Positions 8,513 to 64,000 of a DNA stretch of 64,000 bases are shown piece by piece (position 1 is the first letter of the stretch; every line of letters starts with the position of its first letter). The stretch is from Triglochin maritima (lineage: Eukaryota; Streptophyta; Magnoliopsida; Alismatales; Juncaginaceae): contig OY821784.1 of the NCBI GenBank assembly GCA_963682175.1, positions 38,917,621 to 38,981,620 of the forward strand, given 5' to 3'. Position numbers and translations under genes: made by a program. The notes under the pieces were generated by a model that was not told where the DNA came from, did not search any database, and worked only from the letters and a program-made list of their open reading frames with translations.

Positions 8513-8521
8513 CCTCCCGTG

Positions 8522-40700: not shown

Positions 40701-42258
40701 ATTTTCATTGTTTTGATAAAATTCAAAGACTATAGCTGACAAATTTTGATAAAAACATTCAGATGGCAAATACTTACGATTTCTTTTATTTTTTAGGGGT
40801 CTCACGATACGAATGAATATTACGATGAAAATATTAAACGTATGCATGTCAACGAAGATATTAGTTAGATTTTCATTGTTTTGATAAAATCCAAAGGCTA
40901 TAACTAACGAAATTTGATAAAAACCCTATGTTTGAAAATCCTTACCGTTTCTTTAATTTTTTGGGGGTCTCATGAAACGAATGAATATTAGTAGATGAAA
41001 ATGTGAAACGTATGCATGGCAACAGAGAGATTAGTTGAACTTTCATTTTTTTGATAAAATCCAAATGATATATATAACTAAATAACACACGTAATTTGAT
41101 AAAAACACTCTTTTTCTCAATCCTTACCATTTCTTTAATCTTTTAGGGTTTTCATGATACGAATGAATATTAGTAGAAGAAAATGTTAAACGTATGCCTG
41201 CAGACGGAGATATTAGTTAGTTTTTTATTTTTTTGATAAAATCCAAAGGCTATAACTCAAGAAATTTGATGAAACACTATGTTTGCAAATCTTAACCGTT
41301 TATTTAATTTTTTAGGGGTCTCACAATATGAATGAATATTAGTAGATGAAAATGTTAAACGTATGCGTGCCAACGAAGATATTAGTTAGATTTTCATTTT
41401 TTTGATAAAAGCCAACGGCTATAACTCACGAAATTTGATTAAAACACTCTGTTTGCAATTCCTTACCATTTCATTAATTTTATAGGGCTTTCATGATACG
41501 AATGAATATTAGTAGATGAAAATGTTAAACGTATCCTTGGCAACGGAGATATTAGTTAGAATTTTATTTTTTTGATAAAATCCAAACGCTATAACTCACG
41601 AAATTGGTTAAAAACTCCAAATTTGCAAATCCTAACCGTTTATTTAATTCTTTAGAGGTCTCACGATACAAATGATTATTAGTAGATGAAAATGTTATAC
41701 GTATGCGTGTCAACGAAGATATTAGTTAGATTTTTATTTTTTGATAAAATCCAAAGGCTACAACTCACGAAATTTGATTAAAACACTCTGTTTGCAAATC
41801 CTTACCATTTCATTAATTTTATAGGGTTTTCATGATACGAATGTATATTAGTAGATGAAAATGTTAAACGTATCCTTGGCAACAGAGATATTTGATTGAT
41901 TTTTCATTGTTTTCATAACATCCAAAGGCTATAACTCACGAAATTTGATAAAAACACTCTGTTTGCAAATCCTTACTAATTCTTTAATTTTTGAGCGGTC
42001 TCAACTTACAAATGAATATTAGTAGATGAAAATGTTAAACATATGCGTGTCAACGGAGATATTAGTTAGATTTTCATTATTTTGATAAAATACAAAGACT
42101 ATAGCTCACAAATTTTGATAAAAACATTCAGATGACAAATACTTACGATTTCTTTTATTTTTTAGGGGTCTCACGATACGAATGAATATTACGATGAAAA
42201 TATTAAACGTATGTTTGGCAACGGAGAGATTTGTTATATTTTAAATTTTGAAAAAAAT

Positions 42259-45200: not shown

Positions 45201-46050
45201 CAGTTGGCAAATCCTTACTAATTCTTTAATTTTTCAGCGGTCTCATCTTACAAATAAATATTAGTAGATGAAACTGCTAAACCTATGCGTGTCAACGGAG
45301 ATATTAGTTTGATTTTCATTGTTTTGATAAAATCGAAAGACTATAGCTCACAAATTTTGATAAAAACATTCAGTTGGCAAATACTTACGATTTCTTTTAT
45401 TTTTTAGGGGTCTCACGATACGAATGAATATTACGATGAAAATATTAAACGTATGCATGTCAACGAAGATATTAGTTAGATTTTCATTGTTTTGATAAAA
45501 TCCAAAGGCTATAACTAACGAAATTTGATAAAAACCCTATGTTTGAAAATCCTTACCGTTACCTTAATTTTTTGGGGGTCTCATGAAACGAATGAGTATT
45601 AGTAGATGAAATGTGAAACGTTCGCATGGCAACAGAGATATTAGTTGAATTTTTCATTTTTTTGATAAAATCCAAATGAAATATATAATTATATAACACA
45701 CGAAATTCGATAAAACACTCTTTTTGGCAATCCTTACCATTTCTTTAATTTTGTAGGGGTTTGATGATACGAATGAATATTAGTAGATGAAAATGTTGAA
45801 CATATGCTTGGCATCGAAGATATTAGTTAGAATTTTATTTTTTTGATAAAATCCAAACACTATAACTCATGAAATTTGATAAAAACTCCAAATTTGCAAA
45901 TCATAACCGTTTATTTAATTTTTTAGGGATTTGATGATACGAATGAATATTAGTAGATGAAAATGTTAAACGTATGCTTGGCATCGAAGACTTTAGTTAG
46001 ATTTTCATTTTTTTGATAAAATCCAAAGGCTACAACTCATGAAATTTGAT
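42259..46050. repeat. Higher-order repeat, 1368-bp unit (8 monomers)
   Basis: CGAAGGTTATAGCTCACG occurs at 42259, 43627 and 44995, exactly 1368 bp apart both times. A second landmark, AAGGCAATAAGTC, at 43461 and 44829 gives 1368 again. The first two units differ at only a few positions; the third is complete for about 1055 bp and then switches to another monomer order. This is the most homogeneous part of the array. Confidence 0.92.
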
Positions 46051-46530
46051 AAAAACTCCAAATTGCAAATCCTAACCGTTTATTTAATTTTTAGGGGTCT
46101 CACGATACGAATGCTTATTAGTAGATGAAAATGTTACACATATGCGTGCCAACGAAGATAATAGTTAGATTTTCTTTTTTTTGATAAAATCCAAAGGCTA
46201 CAACTCACGAAATTTTATTAAAACACTCTGTTTGCAAATCCTTACCGTTTCATTAATTTTTTAGGTGTCTCAAGATACGAATTAATATTAGTACTTGAAA
46301 ATGTTAAACATATGTTTGGCAACGGAAATATTAGTTAGATTTTCATTTTTTTTGATAAAATCCAAATGCCATATCTCACGAAATTTGATTAAAACACTCT
46401 ATTTGCAAATACCTACAATTTCATTAATTTTTTAGGGGTGTCATGATACGAATGAATATTAGTAGATGAAAATGTTAAACGTATGCTTGGCAACGGAGAG
46501 ATTTGTTATATTTTAAATTTTGACAAAAAT

Positions 46531-49310
46531 CGAAGGTTATAGCTCACGAAATTCGATAAAAACACTCTGTTTGCGAATCCTTACTATTTCTATAATTTTT
46601 GAGCGTACTCATGATACTAACAAATATTAGAAGATGAAAATGTTAAACGTAGGCGTGTCATCGGAGATAGTATATAGATTTTCATTTTTTTGATAAAATC
46701 CATAGACTATAGCTCACGAAATTTGATAAAAACAGTCAGTTGGCAAATCCTTATTAATTCTTTAATTTTTGAGCGATCTCATATGACAAATGAATATTAG
46801 TAGATGAAAATGCTAAACGTATGCGTGTCAACGGAGATATTAGTTAGATTTTCATTGTTTTGATAAAATCCAAAGACTATAGTTCACAAATTTTGATAAA
46901 AACATTTAGTTGGTAAATAATTACGATTTCTTTTATTTTTTAGGGGTCTCACGATACGAATGGATATTACGATGAAAATATTAAACGTATGCATGTCAAC
47001 GAAGATATTAGTTAGATTTTCATTGTTTTGATAAAATACAAAGGCTATAACTAACGAAATTTGATAAAAACGTATGTTTGAAAATCTTTACCGTTTCTTT
47101 AATTTTTTGGGGGTCTCATGAAACGAATGAATATTAGTAGATGAAAATGTGAAACGTATGCACAGCAACGGAGAGATTAGCTGAATTTTCTTTTTTTGAT
47201 AAAATCCAAATGATATATATTACTATATAACACCCGAAATTTGATAAAAACACTCTTTTTGGCAATCCTTACCATTTCTTTAATTTTTTAGGGGTTTGAT
47301 GATACGAATGAATATTAGTAGATGAAAATGTTAAACGTATGCTTGGCATCGAAGATATTAGTTAGAATTTGATTTTTTTGATAAAATCCAAAGGCCATAT
47401 CTCACGAAATTTGATTAAAACACTCTGTTTGCAAATACTTACAATTTCATTAATTTTGTAGGGGTGTCATGATACGAATGAAAATTAGTAGATGAAAATG
47501 TTAAACGTATGCTTGCCAACGGAGAGATTTGTTATATTTTAAAATTTGATAAAAATCGAAGGTTATAGCTCTCGAAATTCGATAAAAACACTCTGTTTGC
47601 GAATCCTTACTATTTCTATAATTTTTGAGTGTACTCATAATACCAACAAATATTAGAAGATGAAAATGTTAAACGTAGGCGTGTCAACGGAGATAGTATA
47701 TAGATTTTCATTTTTTTGATAAAATCCATAGACTATAGCTCACGAAATTTGATAAAAACACTCGGTTGGCAAATCCTTACTAATTCTTTAATTTTTTTGC
47801 GGTCTCATCTTACAAATGAATATTAGTAGATGAAAATGCTAAACGTATGCGTGTCAATGGAGATATTAGTTAGATTTTCATTGTTTTAATAAAATCCAAA
47901 GACTATAGCTCACAAATTTTGATAAAAACATTCAGTTGGCAAATACTTACGATTTGTTTTATTTTTAGGGGTCTCATGATACGAATGGATATTACGATGA
48001 AAATATTAAACGTATGCATGTCAACGAAGATATTAGTTAGATTATCATTGTTTTGATAAAATACAAAGGCTATAACTAACGAAATTTGATAAAAACCCTA
48101 TGTTTGAAAATCTTTACCGTTTCTTTAATTTTTTGGGGGTCTCATGAAACGAATGAATATTAGTAGATGAAAATGTGAAACGTATGCACGGCAACGGAGA
48201 GATTAGTTGAATTTTCTTTTTTTGATAAAATCCAAATGATATATATAAGTATATAACACACGAAATTTGGTAAAAACACTCTTTCTGGCAATCCTTACCA
48301 TTTCTTCAATTTTTTAGGGGTTTGATGATAGGAATGAATATTAGTAGATAAAAATGTTAAACGTATGATTGGCATCGAAGATATTAGTTAGAATTTTTTT
48401 TTTTGATAAAATCCAAAGGCCATATCTCACGAAATTGGATTAAAACACTATGTTTGCAAATACTTACAATTTCATTAGTTTTTTAGGGGTGTCATGATAC
48501 GAATGAATATTAGTAGATGAAAATGTTAAACGTATGCTTGGCAACGGAGAGATTTGTTATATTTTAAATTTTGATAAAAATCGAAGTTTATAGCTCACGA
48601 AATTCGATAAAAACACTCTGTTTGCGAATCCTTACTATTTCTATAATTTTTGAGCGTACTCATGATACCAACAAATATTAGAAGATGAAAATGTTAAACA
48701 TAGGCGTGTCAACGGAGATAGTATATAGATTTTCATTTTTTTGATAAAATCCATAGACGCTAACGACATTTGATAAAAACACTAAGTTGGCAAATTCTTA
48801 CTAATTCTTTAATTTTTGAGCGGTCTCATCTTACAAATGAATATTAGTAGATGAAAATGCTAAACGTATGCGTGTCAACGGAGATATTAGTTAGATTTTC
48901 ATTGTTTTGATAAAATCCAAAGACTATAGCTCACAAATTTTGATAAAAACATTCAGTTGGCAAATACTTACGATTTGTTTTATTTTTAGGGGTCTCACGA
49001 TAGAAATGAATATTACGATGAAAATATTAAACGTATCCATGTCAACGAAGATATTAGTTAGATTTTCATTGTTTAGATAAAATACAAAGGCTATAACTAA
49101 CGAAATTTGATAAAAACCCTATGTTTGAAAATCCTTACCGTTTCTTTAATTTTTTGGGGGTCTCATGAAACGAGTGAATATTAGTAGATGAAAATGTGAA
49201 ACGTATGCATGGCAACAGAGAGATTAGTTGAACTTTCATTTTTTTGATAAAATCCAAATGATATATATAACTAAATAACACACGTAATTTGATAAACAAC
49301 GCTCTTTTTC
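46531..49310. repeat. Higher-order repeat, about 1025-bp unit (6 monomers)
   Basis: The same CGAAG landmark recurs at 46531, 47557 and 48582 (spacings 1026 and 1025), a six-monomer version of the neighbouring eight-monomer unit. The last unit runs to the telomeric junction. Confidence 0.88.
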
Positions 49311-49354: not shown

Positions 49355-49639
49355 TTTTAGGGTTTAGGGTTTAGGGTTTAGGTTTAGGGTTTAGGGTTTA
49401 GGGTTTCGTTTAGGGTTTAAGGTTTAGGGTTAGGGTTTAGGGTTTCGGGGTTTAGGGTTTAGGGTTTAGGGTTTGGGTTTAGGGTTTAGGGTTTATTTAG
49501 GGTTTAGTGTTTATTTAGGGTTTAGGGTTTATTTTTTAGGGTTTAGGGTTTAAGGTTTAGGGTTTAGGGTTTGGGGTTTGGGGTTTGGTGTTTGGGATTT
49601 AAGGTTTGGGGTTTAGGGTTTAGGGTTTTAGGGTTTAGG
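49355..49639 (+). repeat. Degenerate telomeric repeat tract 1 (TTTAGGG)n
   Basis: Arabidopsis-type telomere repeat with the G-rich strand on the plus strand. Variants TTTGGGG, TTTCGGG, TTTAAGG and inserted TTTA units are interspersed. It starts seamlessly from a TTTTAGGG inside the last satellite monomer. Confidence 0.97.
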
Positions 49640-49741
49640 TTTTTTTTTTTTAACATCCAAACCTTTCATTTCTTAGCAAAAGAAATTACAAGTGTGTAGC
49701 ATTTTTGTGTGTGGGTCATATAAGCCCAACAAATCTTACAT
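49640..49741 (-). mobile_element. Element A: 100-bp LINE 3' end inside telomeric repeats
   Basis: Twelve T residues (49640-49651; oligo(A) on the element strand) are followed by about 90 bp that closely match the 3' end of element E at 62487-62575 (shared words TTTCATTTCTTAGCAAAAGA and TTACAAGTGTGTAGC). It breaks off at CTTACAT, and telomeric repeats resume directly. This is an extreme 5' truncation of the same LINE family. Confidence 0.85.
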
Positions 49742-49831
49742 AGGGTTTAGGGTTTAGGGTTTAGGGTTATTTTAGGGTTTAGGGTTTAGGGTTTATTTAG
49801 GGTTTAGGGTTTAGGGTTTAGGGTTTTTTTT
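49741..49831 (+). repeat. Telomeric repeat tract 2
   Basis: About 12 TTTAGGG-type units with occasional TTTA insertions lie between elements A and B, ending in eight T residues (49824-49831) that form the oligo(A) end of element B. Confidence 0.95.
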
Positions 49832-50039
49832 GCGGGCCCGAAAGTTTATAGAGGCTGGGATTACCTCTTCCTGTATTTCATCAAAAAAGTGTTACAAGCT
49901 AAGATCCTAGAGGCCACAGGCGGCCCAAATACAAGTATGGATGGGCCAAGATGGCCTGAAAATTATGCTAATGGTCTCAAGCCCAATAAAAGTAAAGCTA
50001 TGGCCAACATGGCCTTTTTGTTTGCTGAAAAGAAAATTC

Positions 50040-50231
50040 GGTCGACCGAAAATTTGTTTCGGTCGACCAAGTCGGTTTGGTCTAACCGAGAGGGTCTCAG
50101 TTCGACCGAACCTTCCATGGGATGCACTGTCGAGTTCAGTCGACCGAGACAAAATGTCCGGTCGACCGAAAACATCTAGTGAAGCCCCTGGTTACTGCGC
50201 CGGTCGACCGAGACATAGAGTCCGGTCGACC
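50040..50231. repeat. Palindrome cluster C (GGTCGACC x5)
   Basis: Exact copies at 50040, 50061, 50160, 50202 and 50224, with near-matches at about 50100 and 50135. It lies near the oligo(A) end of element B and corresponds to cluster E in copy 2. Confidence 0.93.
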
Positions 50232-51085
50232 GGAAAGATGCTGTTTGCTGAATCAAATGAAGGTTTTGATGAAAACCTTACCCATCTTCGCCCTGTGTTT
50301 GATGAGTCATCCACTCTTGATTCTTCCACCCGTCGGCTGCATCAAGATCGTAGAAGACGCTCCTCGTATTCTAGATACTCCCATGTACGTTCGACGATAG
50401 TTCCTCATCCAAAAACGCCAACGAAGCTTGGAATCGAGTAGACGACAGAACAATCACATGTACCTCCCTCCATTTGAAGTGTGGGTATGATTGCTTGAAG
50501 CTCAACTTCATTTGATCCGAGAATGTGGTGCTGATATGAAAGATGGGGAGATTTTGCGTCTTCCTAGTCCTATTCACCTTTGCTGTCCATTTAGAAGTCA
50601 AACATGGCTCCGCTTTCTTCAAAAGCTTCCACCGGCGTGAGGCACCCTTCCAAATAGCGGCTACTAACTGGAGATACTCGCGACAACCAAGATTCTTCAC
50701 CATGTAAGCAAAGGGGACAAGATTCGAAAAAAATAAACCTCCACTGTTTGTGTGATCGGCAAATGGTGCAAGTGAAGCCGACAAAGATGTTGGGTGGCCT
50801 CATCGCGTTCCAGACTTTCCCCCTCGGCGTCAACTTAGAAGTCACCAATTTTTCAGTGTTGCACTAATCAACATTCACCTTCCGTATGCCCGAGATGGAG
50901 TTCAACCGATCAAATTTGCTTGCTAGTGATCCTCCGTGAACTCCCATCTTGAATTTGGCTAGGGTTGAGGAGTGCATCAAGGAAAGGTTGGGTTCTTCAC
51001 CGCGGATGCTGCTGGATTATCGGCGTGGTTGGCGTGAAAATACCCGGAATTTATGCCCTGGTCGACTGCTGAAAACTGAAAAATC

Positions 51086-51430
51086 GGTCGACCGACCGCG
51101 GTTTCGGTCGACCGAAATTTGGAAATTGTGGCTCTGAGCTGGAACTGCACGTGTGTTTCGGTCGACCGGCGTAGGATCGTTAGAACTAAATGCGCATGCC
51201 GGTCGAACGAAGATGGTCTGTCGGTCGACCGGACGAAGAATTCGGTCGCCCGAATCTATTTCGCTCGACCGATGACAGGTAGCCCAAATCTCCTGCCCAA
51301 TTTCGGTCGACCGAAACATTAATTTCGGTCGACCGAAACATTAATTTCGGTCGACCGAATCTTTGTGTTGGCGAAAGTTGGAGAGCTTCTTCATTGTGGA
51401 TCGGTCGACCGTCCCCTGGTTCGGTCGACC
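51086..51430. repeat. Palindrome cluster D (GGTCGACC x9)
   Basis: Exact copies at 51086, 51106, 51160, 51223, 51305, 51327, 51349, 51403 and 51423. Three of them form a 22-bp tandem repeat with TTTCGGTCGACCGAAACATT as the unit core. It lies near the 5' end of element B. Confidence 0.95.
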
Positions 51431-51820
51431 GAATGTCGCGATTTTGCCGGAATCCGGAAAATCCAAAATTCAATCTGCCGATTCTTTGACGTTGGGGCTA
51501 AATTGATGGGTCGACGACCTTCCTGTGATGGTGTGGGAGTGGAATGGAGTGGGATTGGAGCTTGGGACGCGGTGTTGCGAGCCCAATATCCAGAAAACGC
51601 GCGGAGGCGGCTGTGAAGGTTTGAGCTCCAAGCTTGATTCCGGCGAGCTGCTGAGGCCTTGAGTGGCCTGGAAGGGTGAGAGGATGTTGTCCTTGCCTTG
51701 ATCCACGAGTATGAAGCCCTAAGTTCCTCGTGTGGTGGAGATCTTGGCCGGATTTTGAGAGGCGAATTTTGGGCGAAAAAATCGCCAGAGCAGAAAAAAA
51801 TTTGCGTGGAATGAGGTGGG

Positions 51821-51861
51821 TTTAGGGTTTAGGGTTAGGGTTTAGGGTTTAGGGTTTTTTT
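51821..51861 (+). repeat. Telomeric repeat tract 3
   Basis: Five TTTAGGG-type units join the 5' end of element B (GAGGTGGG) to the seven-T oligo(A) end of the 8.4-kb LINE. Confidence 0.95.
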
Positions 51862-51964
51862 CCCAAAGTCACACCTTTTCCATAAATGCTGAACAACAAA
51901 TACAAAAAATGTTTGCTCGAGAGTGAGCTAAACTGGTGCGACTCAAACGATAAGCCAAGATGGC

Positions 51965-52043
51965 TAACTAATCCAAGGAGATGGTGAAAAAACCTAGCTG
52001 GGGAACTAGGAAAAACCATCTCCTAAATTTATTGGATTAGTTA
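51965..52043. repeat. Large hairpin in LINE C 3' region
   Basis: Nested inverted repeats: TAACTAATCCA (51965-51975) pairs with TGGATTAGTTA (52033-52043), GGAGATGGT (51977-51985) with ACCATCTCC (52015-52023), and CCTAG with CTAGG inside, separated by A-rich internal loops. It lies about 100-180 nt from the oligo(A) end and could be a 3' RNA structure recognised by the LINE RT. Confidence 0.8.
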
Positions 52044-52082
52044 TACAATCCTTTTCCTATAAGAGAGACCAGGATAAAAAGT

Positions 52083-52179
52083 TGGGCCCAAAAGACCAGC
52101 AACTTAAGGCCCAAAAAGAGAAACCCGAAAGCCTTAAAGCAATCACTCGCCCCTTCACGTCTTCCACCAGTAACCCTAG
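52083..52179 (+). promoter_or_regulatory. Site II and telo-box motifs upstream of plus-strand gene
   Basis: TGGGCCCA at 52083-52090 and AAGGCCCA at 52106-52113 match plant site II (TGGGCY) elements. AACCCTAG at 52172-52179 matches a telo box 13 bp before the ATG. The combination is common in promoters of growth-related plant genes. It is also what nearby telomeric DNA could leave by chance. Confidence 0.45.
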
Positions 52180-52191
52180 CTGTCCAACACA

Positions 52192-52928
52192 ATGGAGAAC
52201 AACCAGGCGAACCGAGTGGAACGATTGAAGCAACTTGATAGGCAGATGGCCGGGAAGCTGGAACGTTACAACCAGTATGGGTTAGAGGGAACCCAGTTTT
52301 GGCGCACCGGAGTGGCAGCACATTTGGAAATGGCATGCCGATCCAACGCCCTTCAAAGAGATGGAATATTGCGACAGGAGAAGAAAAGGAGGGATGAAAC
52401 TTTGCAGTTTCTACTAGATTGCCCAGATCCTCCTCCATCAAAATGGCGAGAATTCCCCATTCCATCTGAATGGGGATTGTCTCTACATGCATCCATAGCT
52501 TCACAAAAATGTAAGAATCTATCAATAAGCCTCATTCAGAAATTGTAGATGTAATTTGTATGTTGAATGCAGATCCTTTGGTGCTTCTCGACCAGTTTCC
52601 CCGCTTGCAACGAATAAGCCGGATAGTGAATAGACTGCAGAAATGGCGAGCAAGTATGGTGTACTTAAGTCCGGTTGAAGAGCAGATGAGACAGACCCGT
52701 GAGGGAAGGGAGAAGCTGGAGTCAATAATGATTTATCGGCGAGATACTGTCCTGAATTTGGAGGAAAAGAGGCGCCGAGAGCTGGAACAGTTTTTGATGG
52801 ATTGCACTGATCCACCTCCTCCAAATTGGAGCCCAAGTCCACTTCTGGATGTTTATCCTCTTCAACAGATTCAGCCGGAGAGGAAGGTGCCAAATTGTGC
52901 TATGAATGAAGCAAGTTTTCCCGAGTGA
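52192..52928 (+). CDS. Unknown two-exon gene candidate with duplicated domain
   Basis: Unrecognised product. Exon 1 runs from ATG 52192 to 52510, then a 62-bp intron with GTAAG (52511) and TGCAG (ending 52572), then exon 2 at 52573-52928 ending in TGA. The phases match (codon split 1+2), giving about 224 residues. The two exons encode related, charged helical segments: exon 1 has EKKRRDETLQFLLDCPDPPP followed by SKW, exon 2 has EEKRRRELEQFLMDCTDPPP followed by PNW, so the protein is an internal duplication of about 100 residues. It has site II/telo-box motifs upstream and runs antisense to the 3' end of LINE C. It could be a host gene captured by the LINE, or a gene into which the LINE read. 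Without RNA evidence the splicing remains a prediction. Confidence 0.5.
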
Positions 52929-55310
52929 ATCGAGAAAGATGTAACGAGTGATGTAACTGATGTAAGAATGATGTACTAAAAGACTGAATGTGTAATAGAA
53001 GACTTTTATAATGATCAAGTTGCTTTTGAAATGTCTGTTCCCTATTCTCCAGCTCAAAATCTTTAAATGCTCCCAATTGTAACAACCCAACTGTGTCCTC
53101 CAAATGCTGAATTGAGAACTTCTAAATTGCAGGCAATAAGAATCATGGAGTACAAAATCAATTTCTTTGAAGTGCATATGAGTAAAAGGAAATATGCATA
53201 AGGAGTTCAGAGGAAGAGAACTTCCCATTTCCGACCAAATCAATATATGAACTTGATTTGGTCGGTTCCCATAATGGCTAGCCGATGCAATGCAAAACAT
53301 GTGCCATTTGCCATTGAAAAGATAATCCAGCTGGGAGTAGATCACCTCTGAACGAGCCAGCAGAAAATGAGATGCTGCAAATTTTTTGAATTTAGAATGA
53401 TGAAAGGGGAGAAACTTAATAAAAGTATAGGACATGTACTTCCCATTTCCGATCAAAGTACTCAAATGAGTAATTTGATCGGGTCCATGTGTGGCTTGCC
53501 AATGCATTGCAAGACATGTGCCAAAAGAACTGAAAAAATCAGCAAACATGTTAGAATAATAAAATCTGACACAAGGGAGAAGCTGCTTATCAGTGATGAG
53601 ATAGCCTTTGCTTTGTTGATCCAAATCATCAATAGTATGATACACATAATTTTGTTGTTTTTGAATCCCAATATTTGCCAAGTGATCAGCCAGCCCATTT
53701 GCTTCTCTGTATTGGTGCTGAATGTGATAATGAGCAGGCCAAATTTGATGAAGGAGGGGAATAAATCTCTGAAGGCTAACATGAGAAATATGGTCTTGCT
53801 TAAGAATATCCACCAAACAAGAAGAGTCAGATTCCATAATAACATTATGCAGCCCAAATTCCTTGCAAAGAATAAGACCATCCAACATAGCACGAAATTC
53901 AGCAACCAAATTATTGGTATAACCATAATAACTGTGATAAGCAACTATAAAATTCCCATTATTGTCTCTTATGATGCCCCCTCCACCTGAATAACCAGGA
54001 TTGCCCTTGCTGGCTCCATCAGAGTTGAGTTTAAAGGTGCCTTGGGGAGGTTTAATCCAATGAAAGATTTTATAATTCAAGTTAAAATTTTCAACAGTAG
54101 TAATTCCTATTTTGCGAAGTTGAGAAGACTCAAAATTGTTGCAAGAATGTGGAGGCTTCAATTGGGAATTAATGACATGAACCCAATCTTTAATTTTATA
54201 GATCATAGATCTAGGATTAATCTTCCTGTCCCCGAATCTTGACTCATTTCTGTTTTTCCAGATTTCCCAAACAATACAGCAACATATGAGTCTTCTCAGA
54301 ATGTGATATCTGTTAAGTCTGCTGGAAAGGGTAAGAATATCAGACATAAGCACCTCATAAGTCATAGTACCACCATGAAACCATCTGTTGTACCATCCCC
54401 AAGCACATTTACTCAGAAGGCTGTCAAAAAACAAGTGATGGAAGGTTTCAGACGTAGCAAAGTGGCAGCAGTTGCATTTGGAAGGACCCAGTCTTTGAAA
54501 TTTTTTCCATGTATCATCCAGTGGCAACCTCTGATTACAAAATTTAATCATGAAGTGAGAAATGTTGGGGGGAAGTTGAGGATGCCAGATACCCTTTGCC
54601 CAAGGTTTAATGCTATTTTTCTTTCTTATTAAATGCCAAGCACTTTTAACAGTGAAGACACCATTTTTAGTATGAGACCAATAGGCTTTATCAGGAGCTT
54701 CATTGAGAACATAATTGCCATAAGAGATATCCACTTGATATTCAGTAGGAATGGATATTTGTTGAAGAATTGAAAGGTTATTGAGCACTTCTTTAACTGT
54801 GAGACTAGCAACATGGTCAGGAATAGGAACAACATCACAAACTCTACCTCTTTCTAGCCACTTGTCATTCCAGAAATTAATGTTGCCATAACCAATTTCC
54901 CAATGAACATGAGGAGTGATGAGTGACCAGGCTTCTTTAAGATGATTCCAGGCAGCAGGTGTTCTAAGAAGAGGGGTCCTGAAGGTGCCATATTTATTAT
55001 TCATGAACTGCGAGAAAAGAGTATTCCTGTGTTGTATGTTCCAGGCAAGCTTCATTCTCATGGCTGTCATAATTTCTCTTAGAGATCTAATGCCAATGCC
55101 ACCTTCCTCCATAGGCTTACAAAGATTGTCCCAAGCAATCCAGTGGTGTTTTTTGACAGTAGAAGTTTCACCCCAATAAAAATTAGCCATTATACTTTCT
55201 ATTCTCTTGAGGATAGTGTGAGGAATATTATGAATGGACATGGTATGCAAAACCATGCTTGAAAGGACAGAAGTGATGAGAGTTTTCCTACCAGCATGGG
55301 TGAGTATTGG
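52722..55310 (-). pseudogene. LINE C ORF2, RT C-terminus, zf-RVT, RNase H and long tail
   Basis: Frame open from 55610, but it carries family sequence only from about 55310 (GRKTLITSVLSSMV). It includes the RT thumb/connection, a zf-RVT zinc-binding region (HFMIKFCNQRLP ... CNCC ... HHLFF) and a plant-LINE RNase H domain (about 54030-53670) with Asp in NSDGAS, Glu in VAEFRAM, Asp in MESDSS and Asp in LADHLA all present. After RNase H the frame stays open for another roughly 310 codons that match nothing I recognise and contain a diverged internal repeat. The preceding RT part is in another frame; the shift lies near 55310. Confidence 0.9.
53205..53545. repeat. Diverged direct duplication in LINE C 3' region
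   Basis: ACTTCCCATTTCCGA(C/T)CAAA ... TTTGGTCGG or TTGATCGGG ... GCAATGCAA(A/G)ACATGTGCCA occurs at about 53220-53310 and again at about 53438-53530. Each copy contains a small inverted repeat (CGACCAAATCAA pairing with TTGATTTGGTCG in the first). It lies within the open tail of ORF2. Confidence 0.7.
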
Positions 55311-56505
55311 ACTGCCAACCTTGAAGTTTTGCCTTAGTTTTCCTAACGAGGTCATCATAATAAGAAATTTTATTAATACCTTTATATATAGGACACCCCA
55401 GATAGATAAAAGGTAGATTAGCTTTGTTGATTCCTGAAATGTGGTGGATAATATTGATTCTGGCAGGAAGAGCTTTGGTAGAGGTATAAAAATTGCTTTT
55501 GTCATTATTAATTTTCTGTCCCGAGAAATGCTGGTAAGAATCAAGGAATTTAAAGACCTTTTGTAAGGAATCCTTTCTTCCCCTTGTAAATATGATGGTA
55601 TCATCAGCAAAGAAAAGGTGACTGATATTAAGGCATCTGTGATGACTCTTGTGTCTCATATTCAGATTATCTTGATGCAGCTTAATCAGCCCTCTACTTA
55701 AAATTTCTTCAGCAATAATGAAAAGAGAAGGAGAGAGCGGATCACCTTGTCTTAGGCCTTTAGTAGAGTGAAAAAGTTGACTAGGAGAGCCATTAAGAAG
55801 GAGAGCAAAATTGTTGTTCATAATGCAAGCTTTGATCATTTGAACCCAACTGTCATTAAATCCAAATTTTTGAAGAATCTGAATTAAAAAGTTCCAATCC
55901 AATCTGTCAAAGGCTTTTTCCATGTCAAGCTTGAATACAACATTATTACCATCAATTTTATCATCAATATGTTGCACAAGTTCTTGAACCAACACTATAT
56001 TTTCTTGAATTATCCTCCCTTCAACAAAGGCACCTTGGTTGGTGGTGATAAGTTTGGGGAGTATATGTCCCAGCCGTGAAGTCATGATCTTGGATATAAT
56101 TTTGTAAGAAACATTACATAATCCAATAGGTCTGGTTTCTTTGAAGTTGCTGATCTTATCCTTCTTAGGTATAATAGCTATATAAGTAGAACAATAAGAT
56201 TTGGGGAGAGTTCTGTAGATGAAGAATTCTTGGACAACTTTCACAACATCTTCAGAAACAATACTCCAACAGTGTTGATAAAAGTGACTAGTAAATCCAT
56301 CAGGACCAGGGGCACTATCAGGAGGAATAGAAAAAACAGTTTTTTTGATTTCATCAGCAGAAGGTATAGCCAGGAGCATGGAGTTATCTTCAGTTGTAAC
56401 CATCTCAGGAATGAGATTAAGAAATTCATCAGATATAGATTCAGTGGGAGGGCCATTTAGCAAGTTCTTGTAGTAGAAAACACCACATTCCTCGAGAGTG
56501 TTCAT
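55288..56505 (-). pseudogene. LINE C ORF2, reverse transcriptase core
   Basis: 405 codons with the L1-type RT blocks in order: SAPGPDGF (residues 64-71), RPIGLCNVSYKIISK, TNQGAFVEGR, KLDMEKAFDRLDW (first catalytic Asp about 194), GLRQGDPLSPSLF and the active site FFADDTIIF (FADD at 299-302), then SGQKIN and the YLGCPI block. Catalytic residues are intact. Copying RNA into DNA at a primed 3' end is the enzyme's role. It is separated from the endonuclease by a frameshift at about 56500 and from the RNase H part by one near 55310. Confidence 0.95.
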
Positions 56506-57662
56506 GTCATTGGATAATGACTATTTTCAAGCAAAAGATTAGCACAAGATTGTCTCCTTTGATAGGAAGCAAGGGCATGGAAGTACTTAGTATTCCTATC
56601 TCCCTCAATGTACCAAGTGGATCTCGATTTCTGTCTATAAAAAGTTTCCTGTTGAGCCAGAGTTTGGATATAATTGGTTTTTTTCAACCTGAGGTCAGAC
56701 CAAACTTTGTTATCCCATTGAGAGTTGAGAGATTCTTCTAATTTGGCTATCTCATTCTTTTCCAAGGTTTCTCTATTATTAATATCCCCAAACACAGTTC
56801 TATTCCAAATTTTCAGTTGAATTTTCAGTTTGTGTAACTTTATGCTGAGATTATCCAGTTGATTGTGCCCATAATGCCCTTGCCAGTTTAACGAGATAAA
56901 TTGAAAGAAATGATCATGCTGAATCCACATAGATTGAAATTTGAAGGTGGTAGGCCGAAAATCATAAGAGGAAGTCTTGTGAATAAGAATTGAAGAGTGA
57001 TCAGAACAAATTCTTTTATCATAGAAAGCCACCATATTTGAATAAGTAGAAGCCCAAGAGGAATTAGTGAAAACCCAGTCAATCTTTTGAGTGAGTCTAT
57101 CCCAAGCCTGTCTACCATTACACCAAGAAAATTTTTCACCCGTAGAATGCATAGGTATAAGACCAGCAGACTCAACATGTTCACTGAATTCTCTAGCAGA
57201 TCTAGAGTCAAAAGAAGTTCCACCTAATTTATTTTCAGGTAGTAGCATGGCATTGTAGTCACCTCCAAGGATCCAAGGAGTTGTAGTAGTAGATTCAATT
57301 TCAAGAATATCCTTCCAAAGATTTCTGCGGGCAATATAATCATAACTACCATAAACTACAGTGAGTTGGAAAGCCATACCTGAATGTTGCTGAATGCTGC
57401 AGTTTATAAATTGGTCAGAAGAGTTAAGAATATTGAGATAAATAGTTCCATCCCAGAAAAGCCATATATTGTTTTTGTGATTAAAGTGAAAATGAGAAAG
57501 ACCGATTCTTCTGCAAACAGTGGAAATAAGATCTGATTTGCATTTTGGCTCCATGACCCCCAGAATTTTGATATTATTAGTTTTGATACTCTTTCTGAGA
57601 GAATAAAGAGTAGGCTTGCTGGTGATGCCCCTGATATTCCAAAGCATAATGTTGTAATCCAT
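56502..57662 (-). pseudogene. LINE C ORF2, apurinic-type endonuclease
   Basis: I chose the start at ATG 57662 (MDYNIMLWNIRG), which overlaps the end of ORF1 by a few bases; the open frame extends further upstream only by chance. It is an EEP/AP endonuclease with Asn in LWNIRG, Glu in GVMEPK, Asp and Asn in GGDYNAM, Asp in KIDWVF and the SDH triad (CSDHSSI, residues 219-225), so the full catalytic set is present. It would nick target DNA to prime reverse transcription. It ends at a frameshift at about 56502, where the RT frame takes over. Confidence 0.95.
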
Positions 57663-57666
57663 AAAA

Positions 57667-58410
57667 TTAATTATGTTTTTTCTTCTTGAGCCTAAGAGAA
57701 ATTCTTGGGCCCTCTTGAACATTGGTTGCAATGGTAGTGCTGGCTTTGTGAAGCTCTTGAAGAGAAATTTCTGGTGAGAATGAAGGGTCTTTATTAGAAT
57801 CATCATTGTTGGTATCCTCCTCTTCATCAAATTGTCCTTCTCCTTCTCCAGTTTCAAAATCCTCCTCTTGAGACGATTCAGCAGTGGTGTCTCCTGTATT
57901 TTCATTAATATTCTCTTGATCTTGACTGTGAGGCTCCTTATAGCTTGTTTTGTAATCATTTCTTGCCTGAACTATAGCTTCTGCCTTGGTGTAACCACCA
58001 TCACTATATGTTTGAATTGCATCTTTGAGGTTAACTTGGTGAATCACGCCTCTCATTTTGATTAGTTGCATGTGATCCTCAGAATCTTCAAGTAAAGACA
58101 CTGCTTGTGGTGAACTGCGTTTGGTCTTTCTGAGTTTAGCAGAATTAGTGCTCCTAGGTGTGGAGAATTTAGAAGAGCTGGGAAGATTAGCAGTTGAGGA
58201 GACATTGGTGCTTCTGGCAACAGCTTCTTTCTTAGTATTAAGAGAGGCTTCATGATATTGTTCTTGAATGGAGTGCTCTAGACCTTGCTGCATGTTCTGA
58301 ATTTTTGGAGTGTCTTTGTCAACAATAATTTCTTCATTAATCTCAGTTACAGGATTGGGGTTAGGTTGGTTTGGTGGTGGAGGCTGAATATTTTCAACTG
58401 TAGTTCTCAT
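57667..58410 (-). pseudogene. LINE C ORF1, C-terminal part
   Basis: 247 codons of low-complexity, acidic sequence (EEDFETGEGEGQFDEEED) with a conserved segment HQVNLKDAIQTYSDGG that has a counterpart in element E (EEVNLEDEVTRLMKE), and the ending FSPEISLQEL matched by YEPEISLKEM in E. It is the continuation of ORF1 after a one-base frameshift near 58405, and it stops five bases before the ORF2 start. Confidence 0.85.
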
Positions 58411-58670
58411 GGTAGTTTTTCAACTTCTGAGTCCAAAATTTGGAAAGAATTGTCCAGTTGAATGCGGGCTTGAGTTGGTGGTGTCGTAGTTTCAGTAATT
58501 TGATTGTGTGCTGAATTACTGCTATGATGGTGTCCTTGATTGGGGGTTCTTTCTGCAATCTTTGGTACATCAATATTAGGCATTACTTTTGGCTTCCATA
58601 CTTGTTGAACCTTCTCTCCTCCTTGAGCAAGATTAAGTCGTCGTTTAACAACAGTAGGCTGAGTGGTTTG

Positions 58671-59543
58671 TTAATCTTGAGTCTTAGCAACATGCTCTTG
58701 CTGAATTCTGCATTTAGCCTGAGTATGGCCAACTCTTTGACAATAATTACAAAATATAGGAACTTGATTGTATATAATACGCTGCTTGTGAATTTGAATC
58801 CCATTGTGAATATAGATGAAGTCAGGAAAAGGCTTTGACAGATCCATTTCAACACAAATTTGACAAACTCCTGGTCTTGTAAATTCTTGCACTTCCTTAG
58901 AACAACATATATATTTTCCAAGAGCAGTAGCTAATGATTTAAGGGCACTAGGGTGATAGAGGTGCATGTCAAGAGCAGGAAAACTTAGCCAAACAGGGGC
59001 AAATGAGGGTTCTAATCCCGGCTTGAAGTAAGGTGACCATTTAAATATTCTCATTCTTTTAGCACCAAAGGTCCAATTGTTATGGAGCCAAGCCTTCACA
59101 AAATGACTATAGTCATTAAACCTCAAAGAAACATGTCTAGGGTCAATGGCTCCAAGAGTGCAGCTGGTAGTGATGCTGAGTTCATTGGATAGTTTTTTGT
59201 TGATTTCATCCAAAGATGCTCTAGGTCCAGCAAACTTACCAATTAGGCACCACTTAAAGTCATCTCCCATGAGTTTAAGTTCGGGAACAGTAAACCCCAC
59301 ATGTGCATGCCCTTCTTCATCAAAATAGGCATTTCGAATTGGAATTGCAGCAGTAAATTTAGGGGCCTGTCTAGTATTTTTGGTAGCAGCAGCATAAGAG
59401 ATTTTGGCCTTGGATGGGGCAGTTGCTGGATTACCATGAAACTGTCTGAGAGGTGAATGAATTTCAGGTGAATCAGGTGGCTTTGGGTCAGGGGGTTTAG
59501 GATCAGTTGGTTGTATGATGCGTGCTACATTCACTCCAGCCAT
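58671..59543 (-). pseudogene. LINE C ORF1, DUF4283 and CCHC part
   Basis: 290 codons from ATG 59543. A proline-rich N-terminus is followed by a DUF4283-type RNA-binding region (GDDFKWCLIGKFAGPR, RHVSLRFNDYSHFVKAW, MRIFKWSPYF, PVWLSFPALDMHLY) and a CCHC zinc knuckle (CNYCQRVGHTQAKC) near the end. This is the standard ORF1 (Gag-like) of plant L1 elements, which coats the element RNA. TAA at 58671-58673 interrupts it; the same frame then runs on to about 58405 before the frameshift into the acidic C-terminal part. Confidence 0.93.
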
Positions 59544-60261
59544 GTTGAGATGAAGAATTTGACCACGTTGACCGCTTCACAATTTTCCTGAACCAAGGTA
59601 AGTTAGATCTAATAAACCAAGAGAAAACGACAATGTGTACGTAGGAAGAACAATTCTTCCCTATTTCCAGCCCTACAACACCACCAACAGTGGGGTGTAA
59701 GGCCGGTACCAAGCTTCGGAGGCGGGGTTTGTGCGAGAGACCCGAAGGTCCTTAGCTCAATTCCTTCCACAGAAAGGTACGTCGGCGATTTCCTGAGCCT
59801 CCTGGGGTTGTAATTTGCCCGATTAATGTCACGTCGGAGAGTTGGAAATCTGGGGCGAAAATGGCAGTTGTGCTCGAAATCGGGGCTTGGATGCCCCAGA
59901 TTCAAATTAACTGCGAGTGGAGTTGCTTGGCGTCTTCCAGAATGTAATGGAGTCGTTTTGGAAGCCGGAGAACATTTCGCACCTCCTTTCCGCGTTGGAG
60001 AAGAAAATGAACAGTGAATTGCAGTTCTCCAAACTATGGCAAGAGCGATCTTGTTCGAAAGAGCAGAACAAGGGGAGCACAGATCGATGAAAGGTAAGCC
60101 TTGGAACCCTTTCAGTCGATCCAGATCAGGTGGAGAAGGTGGATGAGGGGGGGGGGGGGGGGGGAGAACACTGACGTGGCAAGGATTTCGGTGGGAAATC
60201 ACTTTTTCGCCAGAGCTGGGGTGGGGACCACGAGGAGAGAGAGAAAAAACGAACAAATGAG
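59544..60261 (-). other. LINE C 5' UTR with 18-G tract
   Basis: About 720 bp between the telomeric junction and ORF1. It contains a run of 18 G on the plus strand (60147-60164). A 215-codon minus-strand frame (60256-59609) is proline-rich and low in complexity and probably not a gene. Confidence 0.7.
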
Positions 60262-60284
60262 TTAGGGTTTAGGGTTTAGGGTTT
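60262..60284 (+). repeat. Telomeric repeat tract 4
   Basis: Three TTTAGGG units between the 5' end of LINE C and the 3' end of element D. Here the element joins without extra T residues beyond the TTT of the last unit. Confidence 0.92.
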
Positions 60285-60489
60285 GCGGGCCCGAAAGTTT
60301 ATAGAGGTCGGGATTACCTCTTCCTGTATTTCATCAAAAAGTATTACATGCTAAGATCCTAGAGGCCACAGGCGGCCCAAATACAAGTATGAAAGGGCCA
60401 AGATGGCCTGAAAATTATGCTAATGGGCTCAAGCCCAATAAGTAAAGCTATGGCCAACATGGCCTTTTTGTTTGCTGAAAAGGAAATTC

Positions 60490-60680
60490 GGTCGACCGAA
60501 AATTACTTCGGTCGATCGAAGCGGTCCGGTCGACCCGAGAGGGACTCGGTTCGACCGAACCTTCCATGAGATCCACTGTTTCATCCGGTCGACCGAAACA
60601 CAGGGTCCGGTCGACCGAAAATAGACAGTGTTTCCCCTGGTTACTGCGTCGGTCGACCGAAACAAAGAGTCCGGTCGACC
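60490..60680. repeat. Palindrome cluster E (GGTCGACC x6)
   Basis: Exact copies at 60490, 60528, 60587, 60609, 60651 and 60673, plus GGTCGATC at 60510. It is the positional equivalent of cluster C. Most palindromes are kept although the surrounding sequence has diverged. Confidence 0.94.
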
Positions 60681-61532
60681 GGAATGATGCTGTTTGCTGA
60701 ATCAACAGGAGATTTGGTGAAAACCTTACCCCACTTCGCCCTGTGTTTGACGAGCTGCCTACTCATGATTCGTCCACCCATCAGCTGCTTTAGGATCGTA
60801 GGAGACTCCCCTCGTATTCTAGATGCTCCAAGGTACGCTCGACGATGAGTCTTCATCCAAATACGCCATCCGAGTGTGGAATCGAGTAGTCACCAAGTCA
60901 ATCACATGTACCTCCCTCCAATTGAAGTATGAGTGTGGTTTCTGGAAGTGCCACTCCAGTTGATCCAAGGTGTGATGCCGAGATAAGGAATGGGGAGATT
61001 TTGTGTCTTCCTAGCCTTCTCCACCTTCACTGTCCATTTAGAAGTCAAACATGACTCCACTTTCTTCAAGAGCTTTCACCGGCGTGAGGCCCTCTCCCAA
61101 ATAGCGGCTACTAACTGGAGTTACTCGTGAAGCCAAGATTCTTCACCATTTTAGCAAAGGGGACAAGTTTCAAAAGAACAAACTTCCACTGTTTGTTGCG
61201 CTCGGCAGAAAGTGCATATTGGATTCGACAAAATGCGATGGAGACCTTCACGTTTTCCAAACTTTCCCCCTCGGCTTCTACTTAGAAGTCACCAACTTTT
61301 CAAAGTCGCACTAATCCACATTCACCGTCCGAAAGCTTGAGATGGAGTTCAACCGATCAAAGTGGCTTGCTGGTGATCCTCCGTGAACTCCCATCTTGAT
61401 GTCGGCTAGGGCGGATTTGTGCTTCAAAGAATGGTTGGATTCTTCACCATGGATGCTGTTGGTTTATCGGTGTGGATTGCGTGAAGAAACCCGGAGTATT
61501 TACCTCAGTCGACTGCTGAAAAGAGGAAATTC

Positions 61533-61853
61533 GGTCGACCGACCGCGGATTCGGTCGACCGAATTTTGACAGATGCGGCTCTGAGCTGGAAATGCACTGA
61601 GTTTCGGTCGACCGGCGTAGGATCGGTAGATGAAAACGCGCGTGCCGGTCGACCGAAATGTCTTTAGCGGTCGACCGGAAGAAGATTTCGGTCGCCCGAA
61701 TCTGCTTCGTTCGACCGGAAACAGGTAGCTCGAATCTCCTGTCCAATTTCGGTCTACCGAAAGTTTAAGTTCGGTCGACCGAATCTTTGTGTTGGCTCAA
61801 GCTGGAGAATTCTTCAGTGTTGATCGGTCGACCGTCCCCTGATTCGGTCGACC
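61533..61853. repeat. Palindrome cluster F (GGTCGACC x8)
   Basis: Exact copies at 61533, 61553, 61616, 61647, 61669, 61773, 61826 and 61846. It is the positional equivalent of cluster D. Some sites are intact here and mutated in copy 1 (for example 61647), and the 22-bp triplication of copy 1 is shorter here. Confidence 0.95.
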
Positions 61854-62250
61854 GCACCTCGCGATTTCGCCGGAACCCGGAAAATCCAAAATGCAATCGG
61901 CCGATTCGTTGATGCTGGGGCTAAATTGAAGGGTCGACGACCTTGCTGTGATGCTGTGGAAGCGGAATTGGGTGGAATTGGGGCTTGGGACGCAGTGTTG
62001 CGAGCCCGAAACCCAAAATTGCGCGGAGGCGGCCCGAAGTTTGGAAGCTTCAAAACGCGATTCCGGCGGGTTGCTAGGGCCGTGAGTGACCCAGAAAGGT
62101 GGAGTGGGTTGTCCTAGCCTTGATCCACGAGTATGAAGCCCGAAGTTGCTCGTGTGGTGGAGATCTTGGCCGGAATGTGTGATGCGAATTTTGTGCGAAA
62201 AATCGCCAAAATCGCCAGAGTAGAAAAAAATTTGCGTGGAATGAGGTGGG

Positions 62251-62486
62251 CTTAGGGTTTAGGGTTTAGGGTTTCGGGTTTAGGGTTTAGGGTTTCGGGT
62301 TTAGGGTTTAGGGTTTACGGTTTAGGGTTTAGGGTTATTTAGGGTTTAGGGTTTACGGTTTATTTAGGGTTTAGGGTTTAGGGTTTTAGGGTTTAGGGTT
62401 TTAGGTTTAGGGTTATTTAGGGTTTAGGGTTTATTTAGGGTTTAGGGTTTATTTAGGGTTTGTTTAGGGTTTAGGGTTTTTTTTTT
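62251..62486 (+). repeat. Degenerate telomeric repeat tract 5
   Basis: About 30 TTTAGGG-type units with TTTCGGG, TTTACGG and TTTA-insertion variants, ending in ten T residues (62477-62486) that form the oligo(A) end of element E. Confidence 0.96.
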
Positions 62487-64000
62487 CAACCAACCTTTCA
62501 TTTCTTAGCAAAAGAAATTACAAGTGTGTAGCCTATTTGTGTGTGGGTCATAGAAGCCCAACACACCTTACATCATATGGGTCTAAGGTATTTGTATAGT
62601 GATTCTGTGCTAATGGGCTCGCAGGCCCAAATTCTGTTCCTATCTAAAAAAGTAAATTTTGTTACCTAAAAGAAAACAGTGCTAATGGGCTCGCAGGCCC
62701 ACTTAATGTTCCTAATTAATTTTACCCATGTTTCTCTCAAATTGGCTTAGTGGGCTGAAGAAATTCAGCAGGAGATAGGCCGACCACGTTTGGCCATGAA
62801 GGCTGGACTTGCCTGGCTAATTGCTCGGCACTGTTCTTGCAGACTAGTTTTTGCACCTGTGCATCAAAATTCTAGCATAGTGAATTATTTACACTACTTG
62901 CTAATATACCTTAGATCTCCAACATCAATCAGAATGAACCCTTTCACATATGGAGTCTTTTGGATCTTCTTGGTTCAAGTTGCACTTGTAGTGGAGTTTT
63001 CAGCATTTCTTTCAAGGAAATTTCAGGTTCATACTCACTTTCTTCTTGATTTCCTTTTGCATTATTAACATATGAGTCTTCACTTTCAAAATCTTCTTCT
63101 TCTTTATCCTCTTGCTGCAAATCAGATTGAGTAGTGTCTGATTTCTCCATTTCCTTGTCAAATTCAGAGTCTCCTTTGCCATCAGCTGCATCCATCTTTT
63201 TCCAAAAAATATGTTGTTTTCGTGCTTCTACAATGGCTTCCTTTTTCTTCATGTTACTTTCTTTCATGAGACGTGTGACTTCATCTTCCAAATTTACTTC
63301 TTCCCTCCTTCCTTGAAATTTAACCATTTGTGTGGTTGAGTAGTTGACATCATCATCTTCACTTGAATTGAATCTAATGATTCGTTTTCCTCCTTTTTTC
63401 CTTCTTTTACTCTTTGTGTTTGTTCTCCCACTCTTGCTTTTCCTGTTCATGTTTGCATCATGATATTGTTGTTCCATTAATTCTTCTTTACTTGGTGTGT
63501 GTTCCTTGTCCTCAGATGTTTCTCCCCCTTCAACTTGAGTATTAAATGCACACATGGGTTGATACTCCAATGCTTGTGCAGACAAGGATGTTGTACTTCT
63601 CTTTTCTTTTAGTAGTTGAGCAAGTTGTGGTTGTGATGATGAGTGCACACTCATTGTTTGTGATGCTAACTGGGATACATGTTCTGAAATTATGTTTTCA
63701 TCCATGGACAACATCGAATTGCTGCTTGCTGCATGTGTAGCTTGCTGAATTTCCTTATTTGGTTGCTGAATTTGCTGTCCCATGTGTTCAAGTGTGGGAT
63801 TAATTAGTGGCGAGACTTGTGGTGTATCTGCTGGTTTTTGTCTTGCTATATTTGACACTTGATTTCCCAATTCAGCCCCATCTTGTGACCTTGCATCTGC
63901 ATTTACTTGTGCAAGTACTGGTATAAACTTAGGCCTCCATTCTTGCCGTGTGATTGTTGGTGCTGTTATTGTAGTTTTCTGGTGTAGAGATGTGGCAGGT
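62487..64000 (-). mobile_element. Element E: LINE with ORF1 but ORF2 deleted, partial
   Basis: The oligo(A) end abuts telomeric repeats at 62486; the 5' part runs off the window. After the ORF1 stop (62944) there is a short stretch resembling the ORF2 start of LINE C (TTGGAGATC ... GGTATATTAGCAAG near 62920-62895). The endonuclease, RT and RNase H are absent and only about 400 bp of 3' sequence remains. A 23-bp direct repeat (GCTAATGGGCTCGCAGGCCC core) occurs at 62607 and 62679. Confidence 0.8.
62944..64000 (-). CDS. Element E ORF1 C-terminal part (Gag-like), partial
   Basis: Open from the window edge to a stop at 62944, at least 350 codons; the true start lies beyond 64000. The sequence is low-complexity with a Lys/Arg-rich patch (KSKRRKKGGKRI) that could be a nuclear localisation signal, an acidic region, and the conserved ORF1 ending (YEPEISLKEM) shared with LINE C. 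The upstream part (QEWRPKFIPV) aligns with QVWKPKVMPN in LINE C. Unlike LINE C, this visible part has no stop or frameshift. It would be the RNA-binding protein of a LINE that lacks its own RT. Confidence 0.8.
   Translation of the reverse strand, partial: PATSLHQKTTITAPTITRQEWRPKFIPVLAQVNADARSQDGAELGNQVSNIARQKPADTPQVSPLINPTLEHMGQQIQQPNKEIQQATHAASSNSMLSMDENIISEHVSQLASQTMSVHSSSQPQLAQLLKEKRSTTSLSAQALEYQPMCAFNTQVEGGETSEDKEHTPSKEELMEQQYHDANMNRKSKSGRTNTKSKRRKKGGKRIIRFNSSEDDDVNYSTTQMVKFQGRREEVNLEDEVTRLMKESNMKKKEAIVEARKQHIFWKKMDAADGKGDSEFDKEMEKSDTTQSDLQQEDKEEEDFESEDSYVNNAKGNQEESEYEPEISLKEMLKTPLQVQLEPRRSKRLHM

Follow-up and report, generated by a model that had tools for sequence, protein, structure and literature searches.

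L1-type LINEs and companion elements within telomeric repeats at chromosome ends of Triglochin maritima: nicked or natural ends as primers?

The question raised by one scaffold end in the genome assembly of Triglochin maritima (GCA_963682175.1; 1.063 Gb in 167 pieces) is how retroelements come to lie in a row within telomeric repeats, all facing the same way. The window, as the whole stretch of 64,000 nucleotides analysed here is called, covers positions 38,917,621-38,981,620 of scaffold C16 (contig OY821784.1) and carries five elements, A to E, among tracts of the telomeric unit TTTAGGG. Scaffolds are labelled C16, C1 and so on, with L or R for the left or right end, and are distinct from element C. 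The elements belong to a telomere-resident class of long interspersed nuclear elements (LINEs), the bulk of whose copies lie at chromosome ends in a single orientation and, where junctions at the ends were read, in telomeric repeats. The reading preferred here, at a probability of roughly 0.57, is that they form a telomere-specialised group of plant L1 elements whose own endonuclease would nick the G strand and prime reverse transcription there. Boundaries of elements and tracts were read base by base; element coordinates take in the oligo(A), and positions are those of the window.

12313..49265, plus strand: array of a ~170-bp satellite (Tandem Repeats Finder), ~37 kb, directly proximal to the telomeric tracts
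49356..49639, plus strand: tract T1, degenerate TTTAGGG
49640..49741, minus strand: element A, 90 bp and oligo(A)12, a 5'-truncated copy of the E family with 91% identity to the 3' end of E
49742..49823, plus strand: tract T2
49824..51820, minus strand: element B, ~2.0 kb and oligo(A)8, without a recognised coding open reading frame (ORF), 83% identity to D
51821..51854, plus strand: tract T3
51855..60261, minus strand: element C, an 8.4-kb L1-type LINE (by its Pfam domains) and oligo(A)7
60262..60281, plus strand: tract T4, three units (20 bp) between elements C and D
60282..62250, minus strand: element D, ~2.0 kb without oligo(A), 83% identity to B over ~2 kb
62252..62476, plus strand: tract T5
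62477 to beyond 64000, minus strand: element E, oligo(A)10, a ~0.46-kb 3' region and an ORF1-like C-terminal part (62944-63999)

The original prediction of five TTTAGGG tracts and five minus-strand elements, with oligo(A) runs of 12, 8, 7 and 10 and none in D, was borne out at the boundaries and junctions read. On the plus strand the sense oligo(A) appears as T runs of 12 (A), 8 (B), 7 (C), 3 (D) and 10 (E), and the run of three at D is the telomeric TTT alone, hence the lack of a tail. There are 148 copies of TTTAGGG in the window, most of those outside the tracts falling in the 170-bp satellite, and none of CCCTAAA. The satellite is to the left of the tracts and the G strand runs rightward, which places the oligo(A) 3' ends of the elements on the centromere side and their 5' ends on the tip side. 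At the 5' ends, CCCACCTCATTCC is common to B and D, that of C is ~5 bp shorter than in sibling copies at C1L and C8R, and an additional C (62251) stands between D and TTAGGG.

The window lies at a chromosome end, because its scaffold (39.0 Mb) finishes 8.4 kb beyond the window, after a gap of 5000 N, in 2,496 bp of 99.8% TTTAGGG. Element E is readable only to position 64899 in the window frame; the gap, which begins at 64900, parts it from the terminal telomere, and its 5' part lies outside the visible sequence. Terminal TTTAGGG of 2.5-10 kb was found at six ends (C16R, C5L, C1R, C3R, C17R and C22R) and pure CCCTAAA opens 8 of the 21 large-scaffold starts inspected. Other ends, when read directly, carried arrays of varied composition. 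C1R has a 3' fragment resembling C, a pair of full-length B/D copies (86% and 97% identity to D) and an 8.4-kb LINE, C', beyond whose ambiguous 5' junction lie 5.8 kb of gap-free telomere, then a stretch of N and other sequence. C1L (mirrored) has an E fragment, satellite, a copy of the RPL38 mRNA and then E, A-type and C-type copies. A B/D copy with T25 occurs at C5L; a D copy (97.6%), a B/D variant and a C copy (95.3%) at C8L; and at C8R a C copy (96.8%), a 29-bp piece of a C 3' end (with T15), which a single TTTAGGG unit separates from the C copy, and one more C-like LINE. At C22R an E-type 5' end passes without a gap into 8.7 kb of telomere reaching the scaffold end, degenerate in its first kilobase and nearly pure further out. 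The sequence of C3L begins within a LINE related to C, and no telomere was seen there; C3R and C17R show only N and telomere in their terminal 10 kb and are uninformative on elements. A copy on the unplaced scaffold C155 lies inside telomeric repeats. Over seven scaffold ends the orientation was identical in 22 of 22 elements read (hand count), all 3' junctions read were in telomeric repeats, and oligo(A) was present at all junctions read, D excepted. An order of age toward the tip proved unusable, since of the three elements at C8L the D copy lies furthest inward, although it matches D at 97.6% identity in the part read.

The satellite and the tracts themselves show further features. Telomeric tracts also occur within the satellite and recur with it, as a 144-bp tract does 4.31 kb apart on C1 (68160620 and 68164930) and two similar tracts do at C5L; by this shared recurrence, such tracts have been absorbed by the satellite and amplified with it. 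T runs of at least 6 without an element stand between telomeric units in tracts at C8L, C5L and C28R (27 runs of 6-9 in the tallied tracts; longer ones were seen by eye at C28R, locus L057). They are possibly traces of aborted oligo(A) copying, or of slippage.

Genome-wide distribution was surveyed with three short 3'-end probes (E/A, B/D and C) at no more than one mismatch, which miss diverged copies, the window's own C included. Sites within 50 kb of a scaffold end, a zone that makes up 0.23% of the assembly, were counted as terminal, although not every scaffold end is necessarily a chromosome end; the 24 large scaffolds (48 ends) hold 1,055 of the 1,063 Mb. The E/A probe gave 23 sites (17 terminal, 17 oriented, 5 internal, 1 unplaced), the B/D probe 36 (30 terminal, 29 oriented, 4 internal, 2 unplaced) and the C probe 23 (12 terminal, 12 oriented, 11 internal, one of the latter lying 53 kb inside an end with its orientation reversed). 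Altogether 79 of 82 sites fell on large scaffolds, 59 of them terminal (75%) and 20 internal, and 58 of the 59 terminal sites had the 3' end inward and the 5' end toward the tip, the sites being partly non-independent through local duplications. Copies lying mostly elsewhere or in random orientation, which would have told against the original prediction, are thus not what was found. Adjacency to telomeric repeats was seen directly for a portion of the sites, namely the junctions read individually and 12 B/D sites (16 matches) whose 3' ends have TTTAGGGTTT within the 20 bases before them, all of these terminal and correctly oriented. A 1-kb E query returned 59 pieces: 45 of the 57 placed were terminal, 43 of those 45 oriented, with 12 internal and 2 unplaced. 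By the three short probes, L1 LINEs and their companions occur within 50 kb of 29 of the 48 large-scaffold ends in one plant with telomerase-type telomeres. Three B/D copies at C20L (10906, 14361 and 17826), spaced ~3.46 kb apart and all with the same T16, represent a local tandem duplication. No element copy was seen in two telomeric stretches in the interior of C1, L005 and L006; L006 gave only matches of 37-49 bases to the palindromic B/D motif described below.

Element C is, from its ORF1 and ORF2 domain set, an L1-type plant LINE, as the original prediction of a LINE had it. Its coding regions are:

57667..59543, minus strand: ORF1, DUF4283 (PF14111, E=7e-17) and zinc-finger-like, the frame interrupted by one stop and one frameshift
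53600..57662 (low end approximate), minus strand: ORF2, APE-type endonuclease, reverse transcriptase (RT; FADD), zf-RVT and RNase H, the frame broken at two places

The Pfam matches in ORF2 are PF03372 (8e-5), PF00078 (1.1e-36), PF13966 and PF13456, those of the endonuclease and the zinc finger being under the curated cut-off. Among the best 120 of 4,234 protein matches those that are named come from plants, with at most 52% identity over the RT part; as to the R1 clade, the comparison comprised these matches, all plants where named. The visible part of element E has no ORF2 between its ORF1-like part and its 3' end, and the ORF1-like part gave no Pfam match; its DNA is 70% identical to C over 331 bp of the ORF1 region. 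A CTCTGGC(G)A motif, recognised by eye, recurs ~30-60 nt from the 5' end in the C, E and B/D types. The elements would most likely form one group, comprising an autonomous C type, an E type whose visible part lacks ORF2, and 2-kb B/D companions that have no ORF but resemble the others at the 5' end.

Several smaller features were noted within the elements. Antisense to the 3' region of C (52180-52925, plus strand), two short ORFs resemble each other and may be separated by an intron; they gave no Pfam match above the cut-off, and a stretch at ~45.9 kb on scaffold C27 (L056) is similar to the end of the second one. An 88-bp repeat occurs twice in the same 3' region (53220-53523), with more copies in related elements on scaffolds C1 and C8. 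The palindromic motifs CGGTCGACCGA are numerous in B (50020-51460) and D (60480-61870); motifs like them are found on the flanks of an E insertion in the interior of C11 (42.83 Mb, L053) and close to a telomeric stretch in the interior of C1 (L006).

The endonuclease of element C keeps the expected L1 motifs, which have a catalytic role. The residue after the expected catalytic Asp is Trp in 5 of 5 LINE copies at scaffold ends that cover the position, among them C', which is only 37% identical to C, and the C3L copy, beside which no telomeric repeats were seen. At the same position in 77 mapped homologs (plants where named), a sample drawn from the best 120 of 4,234 matches of one search, there are 71 Arg, one each of Trp, His and Ile, and three gaps. 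A search of solved structures with the endonuclease gave no match at E up to 1. The Asp-Trp pair gives biochemistry a starting point for asking how an L1 endonuclease might acquire a preference for telomeric DNA.

Not all copies are telomeric. Five interior E/A copies have non-telomeric 3' flanks and T runs of 7-10, and the 1-kb E query found further interior copies at 4.15 Mb on C19 and 2.02 Mb on C3. Interior insertion is not just ancient, because a copy at 21.5 Mb on C20 is 98% identical to E. At the C26 interior copy ACCATCCT (~8 bp; its A could belong to the tail) adjoins the element on both sides, and at the C13 copy a stretch of 14-15 bp with one mismatch does so. These apparent duplications were chosen by eye, in 2 of 2 interior E/A copies whose 5' flank was read (the two short ones). 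A script found exact shared words of 8 and 9 bases at these two copies and a second 8-base word elsewhere at C26, so that it is the abutting position that argues for duplication. Interior non-telomeric copies with apparent target-site duplications suggest that the E/A family also makes ordinary target-primed insertions.

A copy of a poly(A) RNA of another kind was also found at a telomere. The RPL38 mRNA copy at C1L lies between two telomeric tracts in the orientation of the elements, and comprises a 5' UTR, an open frame of 69 codons (Pfam E 1.5e-34), a 3' UTR and oligo(A)8 against the G strand. The description of this single case as processed rests on the uninterrupted frame and the oligo(A). 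It suggests that the machinery at the telomere takes other poly(A) RNAs.

The geometry of the junctions can be read from what is known of target-primed reverse transcription. Because each junction consists of G strand, oligo(T) and antisense element, it implies that a G-strand 3' end in telomeric DNA would have served as the primer for cDNA synthesis. To this extent the mechanism first proposed stands; its further claim, that the primer was each time the natural chromosome end and that telomerase then re-capped it, is not established: five of the 23 E/A sites are interior with non-telomeric 3' flanks, two of them with apparent duplications, and either model accounts for the telomeric junctions. 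Under the nick model, the endonuclease would cut the G strand around TTT/AGGG near the base of the telomere and the poly(A) RNA would be reverse-transcribed from the G-strand 3'-OH in telomeric DNA, as for TRAS1 of Bombyx, while the outer telomere would still be kept up by telomerase and buried tracts would decay and recombine. A nick is favoured by the conserved endonuclease, by the interior copies with their apparent duplications, and by the precedent of the TRAS1 endonuclease, which cuts between T and A of TTAGG (PMC7265360; this and the other papers are cited from excerpts of their text). A number of observations weigh against it. Four junctions read AGG and then directly the T run, where a TTT/AGGG nick predicts otherwise unless the target unit was a variant. 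The 14 inter-element tracts (by hand) measure 7-884 bp with a median of 76.5, as against 2.5-10 kb of terminal telomere, and random insertion along the telomere would not give such short tracts. The five interior insertion sites have no clear TTT/A motif, the C probe is internal nearly as often as terminal (11 and 12 of 23), a B/D copy at C15:41152 is misoriented, and so are two of the four E-related pieces at C17L, which form an inverted pair (18163-19062). For duplications at telomeric copies, matches between an element's own flanks averaged 14.1 and those of shuffled pairs 15.9 (P=1.0; 13 elements, both flanks). Element A and the RPL38 copy do not rule out duplication, since 10 and 12 bp could be accommodated there.

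The alternative of true end extension is possible, though doubtful. On this view no nick is needed: reverse transcription starts from the natural 3' end of a telomere that is short or uncapped, telomerase then adds repeats, and repeated rounds build the array, the tract lengths recording how short each telomere was. The geometry matches that of Drosophila ends, and very short tracts such as the one unit at C8R or the 20 bp between C and D are in keeping with it, although short tracts of 3-7 units also flank the endonuclease-bearing FoTeRs of Fusarium (PMC12857005). AGG followed by T occurs at 4 of 26 junctions and in 20 of 611 units inside tracts (P=0.013, a weak result from a hand tally); a recount, with one irregular junction left out, gave 4 of 28 and an equally weak P=0.017. 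At most tip-side junctions a G is followed by C or T and then by TTAGGG, as if telomerase had aligned terminal Gs with its template, but microhomology at 5' junctions is usual for nick-primed insertion too. The additional C before TTAGGG, present at 9 of the 17 tip-side junctions tallied (those of C' at C1R and of C27 are ambiguous and left out), could be a copied mRNA cap; one 5'-truncated copy has it too. Insertion of L1 at uncapped mammalian telomeres without use of the endonuclease was reportedly found by Morrish in 2007. Such insertion is described in PMC4700185 and lends end extension a precedent; the conserved endonuclease motifs and the interior copies, whose apparent duplications would mark ordinary target-primed insertion, speak against it. 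That critically short ends were repeatedly lengthened by reverse transcripts of LINEs and of an mRNA (RPL38) on the natural G-strand terminus, with telomerase re-capping the cDNA, is rather unlikely; if it were true, the inter-element tracts would preserve the length that the telomere had at each rescue. It is very improbable that there is no targeting at all, with insertion everywhere, survival mainly in subtelomeres and spread among ends by subtelomeric recombination. Local spread is clear from the tandem B/D copies at C20L and the inverted E pair at C17L, and 20 of the 79 placed sites are internal. However, 75% of placed sites lie within 0.23% of the assembly, and survival alone leaves the telomeric-repeat junctions and the orientation of 58 of 59 sites unexplained. 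Order and oligo(A) lengths also differ among ends, so that the D-type copies at C16R, C1R and C8L (3, 9 and 8 Ts) look independent. A misjoining of telomeric contigs to LINE contigs during assembly is scarcely credible: exactly 5000 N lie between arrays and terminal telomere at C16R and C5L, and the C1R telomere is followed by N and other sequence, but elements join telomeric repeats without N at seven scaffold ends, and C22R and C1R pass from element into kilobases of telomere without N.

Retroelements in telomeric repeats have precedents in insects, fungi, Giardia and Chlorella and in a lizard (PMC10088271). The nick-primed L1 group preferred here resembles in its target TRAS1 and SART1 of Bombyx mori, which are LINEs within telomerase-type repeats, TRAS1 with its nick between T and A; both, however, are insect elements of the R1 family, with opposite directions of insertion (PMC10088271), whereas the Triglochin elements comprise an L1-type plant LINE, non-telomeric copies and a telomeric mRNA copy. 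The MoTeR of Magnaporthe and FoTeR of Fusarium likewise lie in telomeric repeats with the 5' end terminus-ward and few units beside the element; they differ in their restriction-like endonuclease and one large ORF, and in that study no FoTeR turned up at non-telomeric loci (PMC12857005). Element C has instead an APE-type endonuclease N-terminal to the RT. In Drosophila the HeT-A, TART and TAHRE arrays, which include members without RT, are oriented as in the Triglochin array, with the oligo(A) on the centromeric side and the 5' end facing the tip. They are the sole telomere component and telomerase-free (PMC10088271), whereas the ends seen here are capped by kilobases of TTTAGGG (at the six ends given above) and are not made of elements alone. 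Zepp of Chlorella and Tx1-1_ACar of the anole are listed as inserted in telomeric repeats (PMC10088271) and are likened here by description; Zepp is the nearest LINE of the green lineage, though Chlorella is an alga.

Penelope-like elements of the Athena and Terminon type have a Penelope-type RT and no APE-type endonuclease; element C, with an APE-type endonuclease, zf-RVT and RNase H around its RT, is set apart from them by domains. Within land plants, telomere-associated Penelope-like elements occur in Selaginella moellendorffii (PMC12477314), a superfamily other than LINEs and distinguished here by description. A 2025 review of plant transposon niches describes telomere-associated elements as rare, citing these and the subtelomeric Retand of Silene, and in the excerpt states that none like the Drosophila telomeric retrotransposons have been found in plants (PMC12477314). 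The L1-CS LINEs of Cuscuta europaea are also plant L1 elements concentrated in one tandem repeat (CUS-TR24), with a target preference and duplications of 13-16 bp, but their target is a heterochromatic satellite and not telomeric repeats (PMC8091179). A barley paper with the phrase 'telomere-specific LINE' was set aside, since the phrase there merely mentions Drosophila. No telomeric LINE of a land plant was found in excerpts of the open-licence literature, so subscription papers may hold one; the original prediction that no land-plant system had been described therefore holds for LINEs in that literature, with the Selaginella elements as a land-plant case of another kind. As far as found, what is new is the land-plant L1 version with an mRNA copy, the arrangement itself being already known from insects and fungi. 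The genome allows the passage from telomere parasite to telomere component to be followed.

Proximal to the satellite, at 6665-10283 on the minus strand, the window also encodes proteins of a Ty3/gypsy-type long terminal repeat retrotransposon (protease, RT, RNase H, integrase and chromodomain).

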